The notes under the pieces are model-generated. The model saw only the letters and a program-made list of their open reading frames with translations, searched no databases and was not told the DNA's origin. Positions 398 through 42,709 of a stretch of 64,000 nt of DNA are shown here, in pieces (the first letter of the stretch is position 1; each line of letters opens with the position of its first letter). Source of the DNA: Novibacillus thermophilus (GTDB taxonomy: Bacteria > Bacillota > Bacilli > Thermoactinomycetales > Novibacillaceae); assembly GCF_002005165.1 (NCBI RefSeq), contig NZ_CP019699.1:3348001-3412000 (forward strand), in the 5' to 3' direction. The position numbers and the translations under genes were made by a program.

Positions 398-2956
398 CTA
401 TTCCGTCCCCGTCTTCCCAACAGCGCCGTGACACTGTTTGTACTTTTTGCCGCTTCCGCACGGGCACGGGTCGTTGCGGCCCACTTTCGCTCCTACGCGG
501 ACAGGCTGTCTTTTTTTCGGTTCCTGTTTCGGAGCGGGTTGATTGTAATTTCTCGTCGTCGCCGTTTGTCCGACGGCCACTTCTTCCCGTTCCAGATTGT
601 CGCTCACTTCCGCCTTCATGACGAGCTTCGCCACTTCCTCGGATATTTCGAATACCATCTCGTTGAACATGTTAAACCCTTCAAACTGGTATTCGCGGAG
701 CGGATTGCTCTGCCCGTACGCCCTGAGGTGGATGCCCTGACGCAGTTGTTCCATAGCGTCGATGTGGTCCATCCACTTGCGGTCAACAGTCCTCAGCACG
801 ACCACTTTTTCAAACTCGTTCATCCGTTCACGGGTGATTTGCTGTTCCCGTTCATCGTACTGCGTGAGCACTTTGTCTTCAACAATTTGAATGACCTCAT
901 CCCGCTCTTTCAACTTGATCTCATCGGCTGTCAGACGTTCCGGTTCTTTGAGCAAGTTAGCGTTGACGTAATCGACGATCGCGTCAATGTCCCACTCTTC
1001 CGGGATGTCCTTCTCCGGTGTGCTCAGCTCGACAATGTGCTCGATGACGGTTTTGATCATACCACGGACAATGTCGCGCATGTTGTCCGTTTCCAGCACT
1101 TCGCGCCGCTGTTTGTAGATGATGGAGCGCTGCTCGTTCAACACGTTGTCGTACTGCAACACAATCCGCCGGGTATCAAAGTTCGCGCCTTCAATACGCT
1201 TCTGCGACGTTTCGATCGCCTTCGTAAACATCCGCCCTTCGATCTCTTGCTCGTCGTCCATCCCCATTTTCTCCAAGACCCCTTTTATCCGGTCGGACCC
1301 GAAGCGGCGGATCAAATCGTCTTCAAAGGAAAGGAAAAACTGGGACGAACCCGGGTCTCCCTGTCGGCCGGAACGTCCTCGCAACTGGTTGTCGATGCGC
1401 CGGCTCTCATGCCGCTCCGTCCCGATGATGTGCAGGCCCCCCAGCTCGGCAACCCCTTCGCCGAGGACGATGTCTGTTCCGCGCCCGGCCATGTTCGTCG
1501 CAATGGTGACGGCCCCCTTCTGTCCTGCCTGACTGATAATTTCCGCTTCTTCCCGGTGGTGTTTGGCATTCAACACTTTGTGGGGAATGCCCTTTTTCTT
1601 CAGCATTTTCGACAGGCGTTCCGAGTTGGCGATGGACACAGTGCCGACGAGGACCGGCTGCCCTTTCTCGTGGCGCCTCACGATTTCCTCCACCACTTTG
1701 CGGTACTTCACTTCTTCCGTCTTGTACAGGACGTCGGACAGGTCCTTTCGGATCATCGGTTTGTTCGTCGGGATGACGACGACGTCCATGCCGTAAATTT
1801 TGCGGAACTCTTCTTCCTCTGTTTTCGCTGTACCGGTCATCCCCGCCAGTTTCTCATACATGCGGAAGTAGTTTTGGAACGTTATCGTGGCCAGCGTCAT
1901 GCTCTCCTTCTGCACCTGCAGCCCTTCTTTTGCTTCGATAGCCTGGTGCAGCCCGTCACTGTAACGGCGCCCGTGCATGAGGCGGCCAGTAAACTCGTCG
2001 ACGATGACGACACCGTCTTCGTTGACGACGTAATCTTCGTCGCGGTGCATCATGACGTTCGCCTTGAGCGCCTGGTTGATGTGGTGATTGAGCGTCATGT
2101 TTTTCGCGTCGTACAAATTGTCGATGCCAAACGCCTGCTCCGCCTTGTCGACGCCCTGTTCGGTCAGCATCACGGAGCGGGTTTTCTCATCGACGGTAAA
2201 ATCTTCGTCCGGCTTCAACCGCTTGGCAAACCGGTCCGCGGCGTAGTATATGTCTGTCGTCTTGTTCGCCTGCCCGGTAATGATGAGCGGTGTCCGCGCT
2301 TCGTCAATTAAAATGCTGTCCACTTCGTCCACGATGGCGTAGTGAAGCGGACGTTGCACGATTTGCTCTTTGTACAGCACCATGTTGTCGCGCAAGTAGT
2401 CAAAGCCGAATTCGTTGTTCGTGCCGAACGTAATGTCCGCCTGATACGCCTCTCGCTTCTCTTCGGCTTTCATCCCGTGCAAATTCAACCCGACGGTCAG
2501 GCCGAGAAATTCGTAAATTTGTCCCATGCTCTCCCGGTCGCGCTGGGCCAAATACTCGTTCACAGTGACGACGTGCACGCCTTTTTCCGTAAGGGCATTT
2601 AAGTAGGCGGGAAGCGTCGCCACGAGTGTCTTCCCTTCCCCCGTCTTCATCTCCGCAATGCGCCCTTGGTGCAGGACGACGCCCCCCATTAACTGCACGT
2701 AAAAATGGCGCATCCCGAGCACCCGCCGCGCCGCCTCCCGCACGACGGCAAACGCTTCCGGCAGCAAGTCGTCCAACGTCTCCCCGCCCGCCAGCCGCTC
2801 TTTAAACTCAGACGTCTTGTTCCTCAGCTGTTCGTCCGTACAACGGCTGATCTCCGGTTCCAACGCCTCGATGCGGTCGGCTATTTTCTTTATCTTTTTC
2901 AGTTCCTTGTCGTTTTGACTCGGAAACACTTTTCGCATCGCCGATTTAAGAGACAC
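398..2956 (-). CDS. secA: Preprotein translocase ATPase SecA
   Basis: SecA is the motor that pushes secreted proteins through SecYEG at the cytoplasmic membrane. The 852-residue length is normal for Bacilli. Visible elements are Walker A MKTGEGKT at about 103-110, the DEVDS Walker B near 205-215, a long helical scaffold, and the C-terminal zinc-binding SEC-C motif with Cys831, Cys833, Cys842 and His843. The start is a GTG with AAAGGAG about ten bases upstream. It lies between hpf and prfB, the conserved Bacilli order. No frame defects are seen. Confidence 0.98.
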
Positions 2957-3097: not shown

Positions 3098-3667
3098 CTA
3101 CATTTCCGGCTCAATTAAACCGTAACGCCCGTCTTTTCGCTTGTAGACGACGTTCACTTCATTCGTGCTGGAATTAGAAAAGACGAAAAAGTTGTGTCCC
3201 AGCATGTCCATCTGCAAGATCGCTTCTTCTACATCCATCGGCTTTAAAGTAAAGCGCTTCGTGCGCACAATTTCAAATTCGCTTTCATCCGTCTCCTCTG
3301 CGTCTACGGCGGAAGGCGGTGAACCGTTTAACCCGTTTTCTTTAAAAAGCGTGCGGAGGCTTCCATTCTGTCTCGCTTTTCGGTTGACTCTCGTCTTATA
3401 CTTGCGAATCTGTCGTTCCAGCTTTTCCACCACGAGGTCGATGGACGCGTACATGTCGCCGCTCGTCTCCTCGGCTCTGAGCAACACCCCTGGAAACGGG
3501 ATCGTCACTTCCACTGTGTGCTCATCCTTGAGAACCGATAGCGAGACGTTCGCCGGAGCCGTCGGAGCCGTGTTGAAGTACTTTTCCACGCGGCTCAGCT
3601 TCTTTTCCACGTAATCGCGCAATGCAGCTGTGACCTCGATGTTGTGACCCCGGATGTTATATTGCAT
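3098..3667 (-). CDS. hpf: Long-form ribosome hibernation promoting factor
   Basis: HPF binds the 30S subunit and drives formation of inactive 100S ribosome dimers in stationary phase. The 189-residue protein has the N-terminal S30AE domain (starting MQYNIRGHN) and the C-terminal dimerisation domain (KRFTLKPMDVEEAILQMDML), the long form usual in Firmicutes. The ATG at 3667 has a strong AAGGAGG; an upstream extension of the open frame has no family match. A sigma-H-like promoter lies 34-62 bases upstream, matching the known stationary-phase control of B. subtilis yvyD. Confidence 0.96.
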   Translation of the reverse strand: MQYNIRGHNIEVTAALRDYVEKKLSRVEKYFNTAPTAPANVSLSVLKDEHTVEVTIPFPGVLLRAEETSGDMYASIDLVVEKLERQIRKYKTRVNRKARQNGSLRTLFKENGLNGSPPSAVDAEETDESEFEIVRTKRFTLKPMDVEEAILQMDMLGHNFFVFSNSSTNEVNVVYKRKDGRYGLIEPEM

Positions 3668-3845: not shown

Positions 3846-4043
3846 TTACAACTTGTTGACGTTAGAAGCTTGCGGGCCGCGTGCGCCTTCGACGATTTCG
3901 AATTCGACGGCTTGGCCCTCTTCTAATGTCTTAAAGCCCTCTTCATTGATGGCAGAGTAGTGAACGAACACATCACCGCCATCTTCGCGCTCGATAAAAC
4001 CGTAACCTTTCTCTGCATTGAACCACTTAACTTTCCCTTGCAT
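3846..4043 (-). CDS. Cold-shock protein (CspA family)
   Basis: This small single-stranded nucleic-acid-binding protein of 65 residues acts as an RNA chaperone in the cytoplasm. It is a single OB-fold cold-shock domain with RNP1 (KGYGFIE) and RNP2 (VFVHY) intact. The ATG at 4043 gives the usual N-terminus [13 protein letters not shown] four codons upstream is less likely because it abuts the AGAAAGGA ribosome site. It has its own promoter and terminator, so it is a single-gene unit between fliT and hpf. The paralogue (cspA, B, C or D) cannot be told from sequence alone. Confidence 0.95.
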
Positions 4044-4099
4044 GAACGTACACAATCCTTTCTAAAGTTAAAACTATGAGAGGGCATCTCACATACACT

Positions 4100-4128
4100 A
4101 CTATACCATTCCTGAAAGTGCCAGTCAA
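4100..4128 (-). promoter_or_regulatory. Sigma-A promoter of the cold-shock gene
   Basis: TTGACT (4123-4128) and TATAGT (4100-4105) on the minus strand are separated by exactly 17 bases, a near-consensus housekeeping promoter. It leaves an untranslated leader of about 50 bases before the cold-shock ATG. Confidence 0.75.
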
Positions 4129-4155
4129 TTGAAAGCGCTGTTAAAACTTTGCCAT

Positions 4156-4239
4156 TTATCCACAGCAAAGCCCACGGTCCATTCAGTTATGCACAATCTT
4201 ATCCACATTATCCACAGCTTCATGTCCACACTTTCCACA
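4156..4239 (+). promoter_or_regulatory. Cluster of DnaA boxes
   Basis: Four nonamers match TTATNCACA exactly: TTATCCACA at 4156-4164, 4199-4207 and 4208-4216, and TTATGCACA at 4187-4195. All are in the same orientation, and two more with two mismatches follow at 4222-4230 and 4231-4239. The cluster lies in the gap between the fliT terminator and the cold-shock promoter, 28 bases upstream of its -35. No replication-origin genes are nearby. B. subtilis is known to have DnaA-box clusters outside oriC that affect initiation by binding DnaA, so a DnaA-titration or DnaA-controlled promoter role is inferred. Confidence 0.75.
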
Positions 4240-4280
4240 AGAACGTGGGTTTTTTTGTCTAAAGTGACAGAATGTTGTCG

Positions 4281-4305
4281 AAAAAACCCGCCTGCACGGG
4301 CGGGT
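4281..4305 (-). terminator. Terminator of the flaG-fliDST operon
   Basis: A 7-bp ACCCGCC/GGCGGGT stem with a six-base loop is followed by six T on the minus strand. It begins right at the repaired fliT stop codon, which supports that stop. Confidence 0.88.
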
Positions 4306-4654
4306 CACTCTTTCCGGTCGAACAGCACAGGGGGACCGACGAATACGGTATTCTGCTCGCGTAACCCCGGTGCTGTCTCTCGGCAGTTTTCAGTTTTTTT
4401 AAGTTTAAGGCAGCTGTTTCCTTGACGTCTGCAACTCGCTCTGTCAAAGCCGTTTGTTTTTGCAGGATGCGGCGCAATCGATCTTGGACGTCGGGTTGGC
4501 GCTTTTCTGTCTCAGGCAGTGCATCAAATTGCTGCTGAAGGGCCTCTATGCGGTTTTGCGCCTCCTCCAGACGCTCCCAATCTTCCTCGGACAGTGCGCG
4601 GTCCACCACATTCACGAGGCGTTCGTAGGCCGTTAAAACCGTGAGAGCTGACAT
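4305..4654 (-). CDS. fliT: Flagellar chaperone FliT-like protein (frame broken near its end)
   Basis: FliT-type proteins are small helical chaperones for filament-cap export. This one is identified by position directly after fliS (stop and start overlap by one base) and by helical, E/Q/R-rich composition. As given, the frame runs through the terminator hairpin to a stop at 4259. Adding one base to the GGGGG run at 4330-4334 gives a 116-residue protein ending PPVLFDRKE with TGA at 4305-4307, just before the hairpin. FliT proteins of Bacilli commonly end in a similar FDKK-like tail. A one-base deletion in the assembly is therefore the likely cause. Sequence similarity to FliT is otherwise weak. 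Confidence 0.72.
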
Positions 4655-36527: not shown

Positions 36528-39500
36528 GGAGATCACCTCTGTATTTTTTTATTCTGTCGGCATGCTTTGAATACCCAAAATGTTGTTCAACATATTCATA
36601 CGCTCTATTCACTTGAGCTTCATAGTAATCATCATCACTCATTAATTGGTTAATTTTTTCCTTCACTTCAAAAGGGTTGGCATAAATCGCAGCTTCTCTA
36701 AATAACTCTTGGTAACTATACGGAACAATAACCGGTACACCTACCGCCATAGCTTCTATGATCACTCGACCAAAGGCTTCAACTAAATCAGCATGTGTGA
36801 AATACACAAAGACATCCAACGTGGATAGAAAGTCCTTAGGATGCATCTCTCCAAACTCTAATACATGCCAATTGGAAGGTAATCGTCCAAGTGCCTTCTT
36901 CGGCGTTTCCGCTCCACCAAGTATGTGTACTTCATATCCATCTGAATCTGGATAAATTGCAAGCAATTCTTCTCGATTTGAAGGCCATTTTACGTATTGG
37001 TCTCTAGAATGCCTTCCTATTCTCACGCTTGTCCCCCTTTTAGGGCGTGAAGGGCGTTTCCACTCCTCTACATTAATAATGTTTGACCAGTCCTCTTTTG
37101 CTAAAGTGATAGACTTTAACTCCTCAGCATGATGCTCATGGAGTGCCTTTCGAATGAGTGGTCCGATTGGATGCCATACTCCTTCCTTACCAAAATATTC
37201 CCGAAGGTGTTCACTGGCTCTTCTAATATCGTAACGCAACACGGCATTCGGTCCATAATCGCTCATAGGGGTCTGGTTCACGATAACACGAATGTCTTTA
37301 GCTTTCACATCTGGAACAAAACGTTGCCATTCCTGCAATATAGGAGGATACCTCAGAAGTAGTATGTCACATGACACCTTCTCCCCATAGACGATCATTT
37401 GGACGCTATCACCGTCAATTAGATCCCGTATTTTGGGATTGATTTTTTTTCGGGGAGGATAATCATACCGGGACATCTGAATCAATCCTGTACGAAGTCC
37501 CATCTGTTTCTGGGCTTTGATCTCCTCTAAGTTCGATATGTTGGATCCCCCGTCTAAACGAAAATCAGATGCCAAGATCACATCAAAGTGACGTCTACCA
37601 GAACCTTGACGTTTCGGCAACATTGGCTCCGGAACAGCAAAAGGACGTGACTGTTGAGGAAATTCATAACGTAAATTCTTATTTTGACTATGGAAATAAG
37701 TCTGTGCCTCAGCATATTCTTTACGTGCTCCCATGAAGTATCCAGGAAAGCCGAAGGCGGAGTTTCCAGTCAGAGACGATTCAGATTGACGTTGGAAAGA
37801 GAGAGGACCTGTTGGCACCTCGACTACTGCTTCCTCACCAAAAACTTTTTTAATCCTTTTGATAAATTCGGAATCTGCGCCAAACCGGACACAATCCCAG
37901 TACCCGACCGCTTCCATCACGGGCTTACGACGGAACATAAAGGATGACATATTGCTAAATATATAGGCCCCCGGCTTACCTCTCCTGAAAAATTTGAGTT
38001 CATTAGTTGCACGTGCCTGCTGAGAAGTGTTTCCGATCACTGACGGATTTTCTAGTAAATGACGCACTTGTTTCTCAATCTTTTCAGGATGCGACCAGTC
38101 ATCGGCGTCATTCACCGTCACAAAATCACCCGACGCCTCGCGAAGCGCAAGGTTGCGAGCTACATAAGCACCTCCGTTAGATTTTGCTTTGATCAAATGC
38201 ACTCTCTTATCACGCGCTACATATTCTTCTACAATGGAGACTGTCCGGTCCGTACTGCAATCATCGACAACAAATATTTCCAAATTGGTCCATGTTTGTG
38301 TGAGTACAGACCCTAGTGACGTGTCAATAACATCTTCGGCATTATAGACAGGAATAATGACTGTGACTTTTACAGTCTCGTGTTCCGAAAGCCGCACCCC
38401 TTCGCTTATTTCACGCTCGCATACGAGGCAGTCATACAAGGGACGATCGGTAGACGTCATTAATGAAACAGTACTGATTCCATACAACTGCAATGCTTTG
38501 TTGATCCACTTTATGCGCGCAGAAGCTGATGATTCTAAATTCGCAGCCGCAAGATAAAGATCGGCATTAGGTCCCTCTTCTAATGCGGACATTATAGTAC
38601 GTTTAGCCGCCTCAATATTTCCCAATAATTCATGACATTCTGCTTCTATTATGGCCACACGACGTAACCGCGGACCAGCCCCACCATCAACTGCTTGGGG
38701 TAATACTTCCAGACAACGACGGGCATCCTCTCTATTATGTTGATTCGCATACCATAAAGCAACCTCCCACGCAGCTGCTCTTTTTGCAAAAGGATCCTTA
38801 CTCTCTTGATATATGTTTCTAAGATCATTTAACCCACGTTGTGTAAAACCAAGATTATAAAGACGTTTTTTTTGTTCTAATATTAATTTTTTTATTTTTT
38901 TCTGTTGTTTGGACTTACCCCTTTTATGTTTATTTGATTTGCTCTCCTCTATATTTTCAGACCTGTCTTTTTTCTGAACCTCTCTCGGTTCAAATCCACT
39001 AAACAGTTTCCTTTTTAACGTTTTTAGAAAATCCATTGTTTTTCTTATAGGTTTCGAATATCGCCATACACGACTATGTTGAATTTTAGTATATTCCCTC
39101 TTAAAATAGTTTCTTTCTCGTTTAACTTTTTCGTATCCTTCCTTTATTTCTTGAAAGTTTAATCTCAGTTTATTCATCTCACTTTTAAGTTCCTTTAATC
39201 TCTCTTCTTCCTCTCTTATTTTTGAACTAAGTATTTTGTTTTGTTCCTCTCGAATTTTAATTTCTTCTTGGAGTAATTTATTCATTTTGACAGTGCTGTC
39301 TATTTTATTGTTCAGTTTCCTATACTCAGGATGAGCCTCTGCTAAAATCGCTGCTCTATTTAGCACATCATGTTTTTCACTAATCAAAAATTTAACATCA
39401 ATTTGTTTCTTACTAATTGTGTCTTCCGATTTAACATGCTGTTCATCATAAAGTTTCTCTTTTATATAAATAGATGTATCGAATGCATGAGAATTAAATT

Positions 39501-40191: not shown

Positions 40192-42709
40192 TGGTTAACT
40201 CCTTTCTCAATCGAGATAAATGGGTTGAATACCCAAAATGTTGTTCAACATATTCATACGCTCTATTCACTTGAGCTTCATAGTAATCATCATCACTCAT
40301 TAGTTGGTTAATTTTTTCCTTCACTTCAAAAGGGTTGGCATAAATCGCAGCTTCTCTAAATAACTCTTGGTAACTATACGGGACAATAACCGGTACACCT
40401 GCCGCCATAGCTTCTATGATCACCCGACCAAAGGCTTCTATCCAATTAGGATGTGTGAAATACACAAAGACATCCAACGTGGATAGAAAGTCCTTAGGAT
40501 GCATCTCTCCAAACTCTAATACGTGCCAATTGGAAGGTAGCCGTCCAAGTACCCTCCTCGGTATTTCCGCTCCACCAAGTATATGTACTTCATATCCATC
40601 TGAATCTGGATAAATTGCAAGCAATTCTTCTCGATTTGAAGGCCATTTTACGTATTGGTCTCTAGAATGCCTTCCTATTCTCACGCTTGTCCCCCTTTTA
40701 GGGCGTGAAGGGCGTTTCCACTCCTCTACATTAATAATGTTTGACCAGTCCTCTTTTGCTAAAGTGATAGACTTTAACTCCTCAGCATGATGCTCATGGA
40801 GTGCTTTTCGAATGAGTGGACCGATTGGATGCCATACACCTTCCTTTCCAAAATATTCCTGAAGGTGTTCACTGGCTCTTCTAATATCGTAACGCAACAC
40901 GGCATTCGGCCCATAATCGCTCATAGGGGTCTGGTTCACGATAACACGAATGTCTTTAGCTTTCACATCTGGAACAAAACGTTGCCATTCCTGCAATATA
41001 GGAGGATACCTCAGAAGTAGTATGTCACATGACACCTTCTCCCCATAGACGATCATTTGGACGCTATCACCGTCAATTAGATCCCGTATTTTGGGATTGA
41101 TTTTTTTTCGGGGAGGATAATCATACCGGGACATCTGAATCAATCCTGTACGAAGTCCCATCTGTTTCTGGGCTTTGATCTCCTCTAAGTTCGATATGTT
41201 GGATCCCCCGTCTAAACGAAAATCAGATGCCAAGATCACATCAAAGTGACGTCTACCAGAACCTTGACGTTTCGGCAACATTGGCTCCGGAACAGCAAAA
41301 GGACGTGACTGTTGAGGAAATTCATAACGTAAATTCTTATTTTGACTATGGAAATAAGTCTGTGCCTCAGCATATTCTTTACGTGCTCCCATGAAGTATC
41401 CAGGAAAGCCGAAGGCGGAGTTTCCAGTCAGAGACGATTCAGATTGACGTTGGAAAGAGAGAGGACCTGTTGGCACCTCGACTACTGCTTCCTCACCAAA
41501 AACTTTTTTAATCCTTTTGATAAATTCGGAATCTGCGCCAAACCGGACACAATCCCAGTACCCGACCGCTTCCATCACGGGCTTACGACGGAACATAAAG
41601 GATGACATATTGCTAAATATATAGGCCCCCGGCTTACCTCTCCTGAAAAATTTGAGTTCATTAGTTGCACGTGCCTGCTGAGAAGTGTTTCCGATCACTG
41701 ACGGATTTTCTAGTAAATGACGCACTTGTTTCTCAATCTTTTCAGGATGCGACCAGTCATCGGCGTCATTCACCGTCACAAAATCACCCGACGCCTCGCG
41801 AAGCGCAAGGTTGCGAGCTACATAAGCACCTCCGTTAGATTTTGCTTTGATCAAATGCACTCTCTTATCACGCGCTACATATTCTTCTACAATGGAGACT
41901 GTCCGGTCCGTACTGCAATCATCGACAACAAATATTTCCAAATTGGTCCATGTTTGTGTGAGTACAGACCCTAGTGACGTGTCAATAACATCTTCGGCAT
42001 TATAGACAGGAATAATGACTGTGACTTTTACAGTCTCGTGTTCCGAAAGCCGCACCCCTTCGCTTATTTCACGCTCGCATACGAGGCAGTCATACAAGGG
42101 ACGATCGGTAGACGTCATTAATGAAACAGTACTGATTCCATACAACTGCAATGCTTTGTTGATCCACTTTATGCGCGCAGAAGCTGATGATTCTAAATTC
42201 GCAGCCGCAAGATAAAGATCGGCATTAGGTCCCTCTTCTAATGCGGACATTATAGTACGTTTAGCCGCCTCAATATTTCCCAATAATTCATGACATTCTG
42301 CTTCTATTATGGCCACACGACGTAATTGTTCAGAATCCGTCTCTCCTTCAATTGCTTGGGGCAACATTTCCAGACAACGGCATGCATTCTCTCTATTATT
42401 TTGATTCGCATGCCATAAGGATAACTCCCATGCAGCTTTTCTTTTTATAAAGGGATCCTTACTCTCTTGATATATGTTTCTAAGATCATTTAACCCACGT
42501 TGTGTAAAACCGAGATTCTGAAGCCGAAATTTGGTTAGTTCAATTTCACGTAAATGAGTTTGAATATTCCCTCGACTAAATAGCCTTTTAATCTTCTTTT
42601 TCTGTTTTTGAGTAAACAAGTTTGTTATAAATCGCCTTTGTTTTGTATCGAATAACTTATAAGCAATCCATTCAAGAAAATCTATCACTTTGCTCTTGAG
42701 TACTTCCAT
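40151..42709 (-). CDS. GT2 - GT4 fusion glycosyltransferase
   Basis: The 852-residue paralogue has a distinct basic N-terminus (about 1-60), then the same TPR-like region, GT2 domain (about 235-420) and GT4-like C-terminal domain (about 500-840) as the downstream FkbM fusion, and no methyltransferase. Near the end the GT4 acceptor-side segment differs (YFTHPNWIEAFGRV rather than [14 protein letters not shown]). The ATG start is at 42709. It probably adds sugars to a surface glycan; donors are unknown. It sits between the ABC exporter genes and the fusion gene in one minus-strand series. Confidence 0.9.
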   Translation of the reverse strand: MEVLKSKVIDFLEWIAYKLFDTKQRRFITNLFTQKQKKKIKRLFSRGNIQTHLREIELTKFRLQNLGFTQRGLNDLRNIYQESKDPFIKRKAAWELSLWHANQNNRENACRCLEMLPQAIEGETDSEQLRRVAIIEAECHELLGNIEAAKRTIMSALEEGPNADLYLAAANLESSASARIKWINKALQLYGISTVSLMTSTDRPLYDCLVCEREISEGVRLSEHETVKVTVIIPVYNAEDVIDTSLGSVLTQTWTNLEIFVVDDCSTDRTVSIVEEYVARDKRVHLIKAKSNGGAYVARNLALREASGDFVTVNDADDWSHPEKIEKQVRHLLENPSVIGNTSQQARATNELKFFRRGKPGAYIFSNMSSFMFRRKPVMEAVGYWDCVRFGADSEFIKRIKKVFGEEAVVEVPTGPLSFQRQSESSLTGNSAFGFPGYFMGARKEYAEAQTYFHSQNKNLRYEFPQQSRPFAVPEPMLPKRQGSGRRHFDVILASDFRLDGGSNISNLEEIKAQKQMGLRTGLIQMSRYDYPPRKKINPKIRDLIDGDSVQMIVYGEKVSCDILLLRYPPILQEWQRFVPDVKAKDIRVIVNQTPMSDYGPNAVLRYDIRRASEHLQEYFGKEGVWHPIGPLIRKALHEHHAEELKSITLAKEDWSNIINVEEWKRPSRPKRGTSVRIGRHSRDQYVKWPSNREELLAIYPDSDGYEVHILGGAEIPRRVLGRLPSNWHVLEFGEMHPKDFLSTLDVFVYFTHPNWIEAFGRVIIEAMAAGVPVIVPYSYQELFREAAIYANPFEVKEKINQLMSDDDYYEAQVNRAYEYVEQHFGYSTHLSRLRKELTNGREKEWDKKHAF
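40225..42517 (-). repeat. Near-identical 2.3-kb direct repeat, copy B
   Basis: This is the partner of 36567-38856. The two copies are separated by the FkbM/coiled-coil-encoding segment, about 1.4 kb. Homologous recombination between them would delete that segment and leave a single GT2-GT4 gene. Confidence 0.93.

Follow-up and report, generated by a model that had tools for sequence, protein, structure and literature searches.

Organization of the region upstream of hpf–secA

The window, a 64,000-nucleotide stretch of the Novibacillus thermophilus chromosome (positions 3,348,001–3,412,000 of a single contig of 3,629,225 bp), contains on its minus strand the gene order fliD, fliS, fliT-like gene, csp, hpf and secA, where fliD is named from its match and its position. 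The intergenic region between the fliT-like gene and csp is occupied by a cluster of DnaA boxes, which lie on the strand opposite to that of the surrounding genes. In window coordinates the features are the following.

398–2956, minus strand: secA (Pfam SecA domains)
3098–3667, minus strand: hpf, long ribosome hibernation promoting factor (Pfam Ribosomal_S30AE and its C-terminal domain)
3846–4055, minus strand: csp, cold-shock domain protein (Pfam CSD, 2e-32)
4100–4128, minus strand: promoter-like site for csp, TTGACT-17-TATAGT with TG before the -10 (consensus scan)
4156–4164, plus strand: outlying exact DnaA box, TTATCCACA
4187–4195, plus strand: core box 1, exact DnaA box TTATGCACA, which opens the conserved core
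4199–4207, plus strand: core box 2, exact DnaA box TTATCCACA, 12 bp after box 1, conserved core
4208–4216, plus strand: core box 3, exact DnaA box TTATCCACA, 9 bp after box 2, conserved core
4222–4239, plus strand: two weak DnaA-box-like sites, ATGTCCACA (4222) and CTTTCCACA (4231), with two mismatches each
4259–4654, minus strand: fliT-like gene, from its position after fliD–fliS; FliT is matched only weakly in Pfam (E 0.023, sub-threshold)
4301–4286: terminator-like hairpin beside the cluster, on the side of the fliT-like gene

Four exact TTATNCACA boxes start at 4156, 4187, 4199 and 4208, all on the plus strand and within 61 bp. The original prediction of four exact and two weaker boxes, in one orientation within 84 bases, is thereby located on the plus strand at 4156–4239. 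It had also placed the boxes between a fliT terminator and a cold-shock promoter. The hairpin, the promoter-like site and the gap of 28 bases between the first box and the start of that site (4128) are indeed present, and the part of the claim that names fliT is weakened by the poor Pfam match. The consensus scan returned one promoter-like site, where 1.0 is expected by chance.

An Rfam search over the site gave only a sub-threshold cspA match, which spans csp with its leader, and a miRNA match of chance level (4234–4300). Neither covers the core boxes, and an RNA element was rejected. A small inverted repeat (TGAGATGCCCTCTCA in the orientation of the leader) is found 5' of the csp start codon and is common to the host (window 4060–4100) and genome G001 (L092 1650–1680). 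Elsewhere in the window, positions 36562–38865 and 40220–42526 form a duplicated segment with a spacing of ∼3.66 kb, in which 300 nt are 96% identical and 182 nt are 86% identical.

Rarity and conservation of the three-box core

The density of boxes was compared with 400 windows simulated from a dinucleotide Markov model of the window. The model predicts 1.8 exact boxes per 64 kb, and the window has seven. In no simulated window did an 84 bp span contain more than two exact boxes, against four in the actual cluster, in agreement with the original expectation that such clustering is very unlikely to arise by chance. In the complete host genome, close pairs of exact boxes on the same strand occur at three places only: in the window cluster, directly upstream of dnaA and at a site 211 bp downstream of tsaD. 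A reversed control pattern gave no close same-strand pairs in this genome.

Conservation was assessed by locating the hpf locus through Hpf in 42 genomes of the host's order (Thermoactinomycetales) and scanning ∼8 kb upstream of hpf. Sufficient upstream sequence was available for 35 genomes, and 27 of these contain the cluster, in each case in the same orientation relative to hpf. The core TTATNCACA-N3-TTATCCACA-NNATCCACA is perfect in 19 of the 27 carriers, has one mismatch in three (G024, G025 and G035) and is weaker or altered in its spacing in the remaining five (G029, G030, G039, G040 and G041). Carriers that can be named from public contigs are, among others, Lihuaxuella thermophila, Paenactinomyces guangxiensis, Marininema halotolerans and Polycladospora coralii. 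The comparison of this gap in related genomes, which had been proposed as a check, thus found the boxes retained rather than lost. Extra hpf copies, which serve as an internal control (G016b, G017b and G018b), are not accompanied by a cluster.

Column information is ∼2 bits within the boxes, drops to ∼0 at position 5 of box 1, the variable N, and is mostly at or below 0.5 bits outside them, so that conservation ends at the box edges. This column pattern matches the specificity of DnaA. Taking the best core match at each locus biases the result towards the box columns. Carriers, with at most one change, are nevertheless well separated from the background. On the opposite strand of the same DNA the best core match requires 7–11 changes.

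The cluster is absent from eight of the 35 genomes (G008, G014, G015, G019, G020, G021, G028 and G031, of which G021 retains a single box) and is therefore dispensable. One of these, G028, has 46 close one-strand box pairs in a genome of 2.5 Mb, far above its relatives.

Searching 399 Bacilli genomes for the core gave 23 occurrences, one per genome and all upstream of hpf–secA; in G033 the core lies ∼3 kb upstream of secA and hpf was not found. While 20 of the 23 belong to the host's order, three come from two other orders. Their gene orders are fliD–fliS–fliT–[cluster]–SBP–permease–csp–hpf–secA in G063, fliD–fliS–cheW–[cluster]–hpf–secA in G094 and fliD–fliS–two genes–[cluster]–hpf–secA in G079. 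The latter two genomes belong to one order, where the core was present in two of the five genomes examined. With base 9 of box 1 relaxed, two more matches appeared in the host's order, namely the clusters at tsaD in G000 and G001. Among 75 public hpf loci outside the host's order (Paenibacillus, Aneurinibacillus, Alkalihalobacillus and others) no core was detected within five changes in the available upstream DNA, and the cluster is thus not general in Bacilli.

The eight genomes of the host's order that have no cluster are what one might expect of a chance arrangement or of non-functional DNA shared by ancestry. We nevertheless regard this explanation as highly improbable. The simulations, which rule out chance, never reached the observed density. 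Shared ancestry is countered by the restriction of conservation to the box positions while the flanks have diverged, other orders included, where the core is retained at the same locus within fully diverged flanks. On this comparative evidence, the cluster is under selection.

Neighbouring genes and the question of transcriptional control

The genes that adjoin the cluster are not constant. In most of the host's order it is located within an amino-acid ABC transporter locus, flanked by the genes for the solute-binding protein and the permease, ∼2 kb from hpf. In G009 a DEAD-helicase gene and one further gene precede it, and by position we take the pair to be comF genes. In G079, G094 and G041 the cluster is found 166–265 bp upstream of hpf. 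What is constant, judging from the gene orders compared, is a position upstream of hpf–secA with no fixed target gene.

The original prediction had suggested that DnaA might control the cold-shock gene. If so, the boxes should have been kept beside the csp promoter in relatives, and in most carriers either two ABC-transporter genes intervene or csp is absent. No csp is found between the cluster and hpf in six carriers (G030, G039, G040, G041, G079 and G094). Conversely, csp is present at the locus and the cluster absent in G008, G014, G015, G019, G020 and G031, as well as in G021, which has the single box only. Even where the two adjoin, their distance varies. The variable neighbours, the carriers that lack csp and the gap of ∼2 kb to hpf in most genomes argue against cold-shock control, and comparative gene order rules it out as the main role. 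Rather than switching the cold-shock gene, the cluster probably serves in the timing of replication.

A broader form of this idea is that DnaA acts at the cluster as a transcription factor for whichever gene lies downstream (csp here, the permease operon or hpf elsewhere), coupling its expression to replication status. In the host a promoter-like site follows the boxes after a gap of 28 bp, in the three genomes mentioned above the cluster is 166–265 bp upstream of hpf, and in B. subtilis DnaA plays such a role at some of the regions that it binds (PMC4447404). This has to be set against an adjoining gene that may be csp, permease, SBP or hpf, an inconstant distance to csp or hpf, and the existence of both csp-less carriers and cluster-less csp loci. 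We therefore consider transcriptional control unlikely, although it deserves some weight.

Chromosomal setting and a candidate role in replication initiation

In five genomes for which the distance was obtained, the cluster is 154, 169, 182, 210 and 276 kb from dnaA (4.1–7.6% of the genome), the host having the largest value (276 kb, 7.6% of its genome). The earlier description of the cluster as lying far from origin genes is correct in the sense that dnaA is 276 kb away, but by the usage applied to the B. subtilis clusters the site counts as oriC-proximal.

Clustered DnaA boxes would equally be found at an ectopic or relict replication origin. Neither dnaA nor dnaN is nearby, however, a search for a DnaA-trio-like run in 4056–4260 found none, and the oriC-like region of the genome sits at dnaA. 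The lack of origin genes and of a DnaA-trio-like run rules this candidate out, and we assign it a vanishingly small likelihood.

The second non-oriC cluster of the host, downstream of tsaD (L002 1501–1572, genome ∼314,971–315,040), is 316 kb from dnaA on the other side. It has the same three-box core with 12 + 9 bp spacing and one changed base, both in the host and in G001. A box pair is observed 65–410 bp downstream of tsaD in 16 of the 24 genomes with comparable pair positions, always on the strand opposite to tsaD. In the hpf and tsaD clusters alike, boxes and gene occupy opposite strands, and the boxes point towards oriC wherever oriC can be placed. Some genomes of the host's order also contain a box pair near rlmH (L155, L156, L157, L160 and L162), which in L160 and L162 is located between an HtrA-like gene and rlmH. 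We take yydA of B. subtilis to be rlmH, and the pair near this gene appears to correspond to the yydA cluster. The gcp (tsaD) and yydA regions are among the high-affinity DnaA regions of B. subtilis (PMC4447404). Both clusters thus appear to be conserved in the host's order too, and their recovery by the same approach provides positive controls. A further DnaA-box pair was seen in G001 (L158 5228–5248), within a phage-like group of genes that includes a replicative helicase and other replication genes.

The window cluster resembles the B. subtilis gcp–ydiF cluster, downstream of tsaD, in consisting of grouped DnaA boxes in an intergenic region outside oriC, and it is the host tsaD cluster, at the place that matches gcp–ydiF, that shares its 12 + 9 bp core; this layout was compared within the host. 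The two differ in locus, and DnaA binding has been measured at gcp–ydiF, whereas the window cluster is known from its sequence. Several boxes per intergenic region are likewise found in the yydA, ywlC, ywcI, sda/yqeG and trmE clusters of B. subtilis, which are bound by DnaA in vitro (PMC4447404) and most of which are on the oriC side of the chromosome. None of the 20 strongest B. subtilis DnaA regions tabulated in that study is at hpf/secA, and a rigid three-box core is not among the features of the B. subtilis clusters in the descriptions accessible to us. We found no earlier report of a cluster at hpf–secA in the searchable literature, which is incomplete.

The assignment to the non-oriC type known from B. 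subtilis, proposed originally, agrees with these comparisons: the four exact and two weak boxes are intergenic and conserved. More specifically, several boxes fall within ∼100–200 bp, outside dnaA–dnaN, in an intergenic and oriC-proximal position, and a canonical DnaA is present. The host DnaA contains the HTH domain (Pfam Bac_DnaA_C, 4.8e-33) with the motif GGRDHTTVIHA of the canonical box-recognizing domain.

We therefore favour, with reasonable though not full confidence, the view that this is an oriC-proximal DnaA-box cluster (DBC) to which DnaA binds cooperatively and which, by retaining the protein, restrains initiation. DnaA would load first on the head-to-tail core with its 12 + 9 bp spacing and would then spread across the nearby weak boxes as a cooperative oligomer. 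Being only ∼4–8% of the genome away from oriC, the site would be doubled soon after initiation, and the doubled site would keep DnaA off the origin such that re-initiation is restrained or delayed. The holding role is suggested by analogy, since the B. subtilis clusters act in this way together. Binding of B. subtilis DnaA to such regions is cooperative, and a strong preference for ATP-DnaA is seen at some of them, gcp included (PMC4447404); deletion of six non-oriC clusters leads to early initiation (PMC5295017 and PMC13220808). For the hpf–secA site, occupancy by DnaA, its cooperativity, a preference for ATP-DnaA and the influence on initiation are all inferred.

Titration alone does not account for the strict orientation and spacing. 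The rigid spacing suggests that a defined DnaA oligomer would form. This raises the alternative that the cluster does more than serve as a sink, either altering the nucleotide state or assembly of DnaA in a manner similar to datA or DARS, or acting as a directional element towards oriC. The E. coli datA, DARS1 and DARS2 loci are also non-coding DnaA-box loci with a conserved chromosomal position, and they tune initiation. They are, however, dependent on IHF/Fis, have no known relation to the present cluster and are reported absent from B. subtilis (PMC13220808). The rigid layout, the orientation of the hpf and tsaD boxes against the gene strand and towards oriC where it can be placed, and the strong preference of the B. 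subtilis gcp and sda sites for ATP-DnaA (PMC4447404) speak for such an activity; its absence from B. subtilis in the datA and DARS form, and an rlmH cluster in G016 that is not directed towards oriC, speak against it. On balance we judge it decidedly unlikely. The boldest version, which we see as rather unlikely, is that an ancient rigid module of 12 + 9 bp, in one orientation to oriC and in at least three orders of Bacilli, forms a defined ATP-DnaA oligomer and is a dedicated regulator of initiation, a Gram-positive counterpart of datA/DARS and not a passive sink.

A cluster that traps DnaA near oriC, our preferred reading, bears on the question of what keeps DnaA in check in Bacillus-type bacteria in place of Hda, datA or DARS. 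The module common to the hpf and tsaD clusters offers a defined system for studying the effects of spacing and orientation on DnaA cooperativity. That the cluster is held in place and in register across orders despite the turnover of its neighbours is strong evidence that such clusters are selected in their own right.
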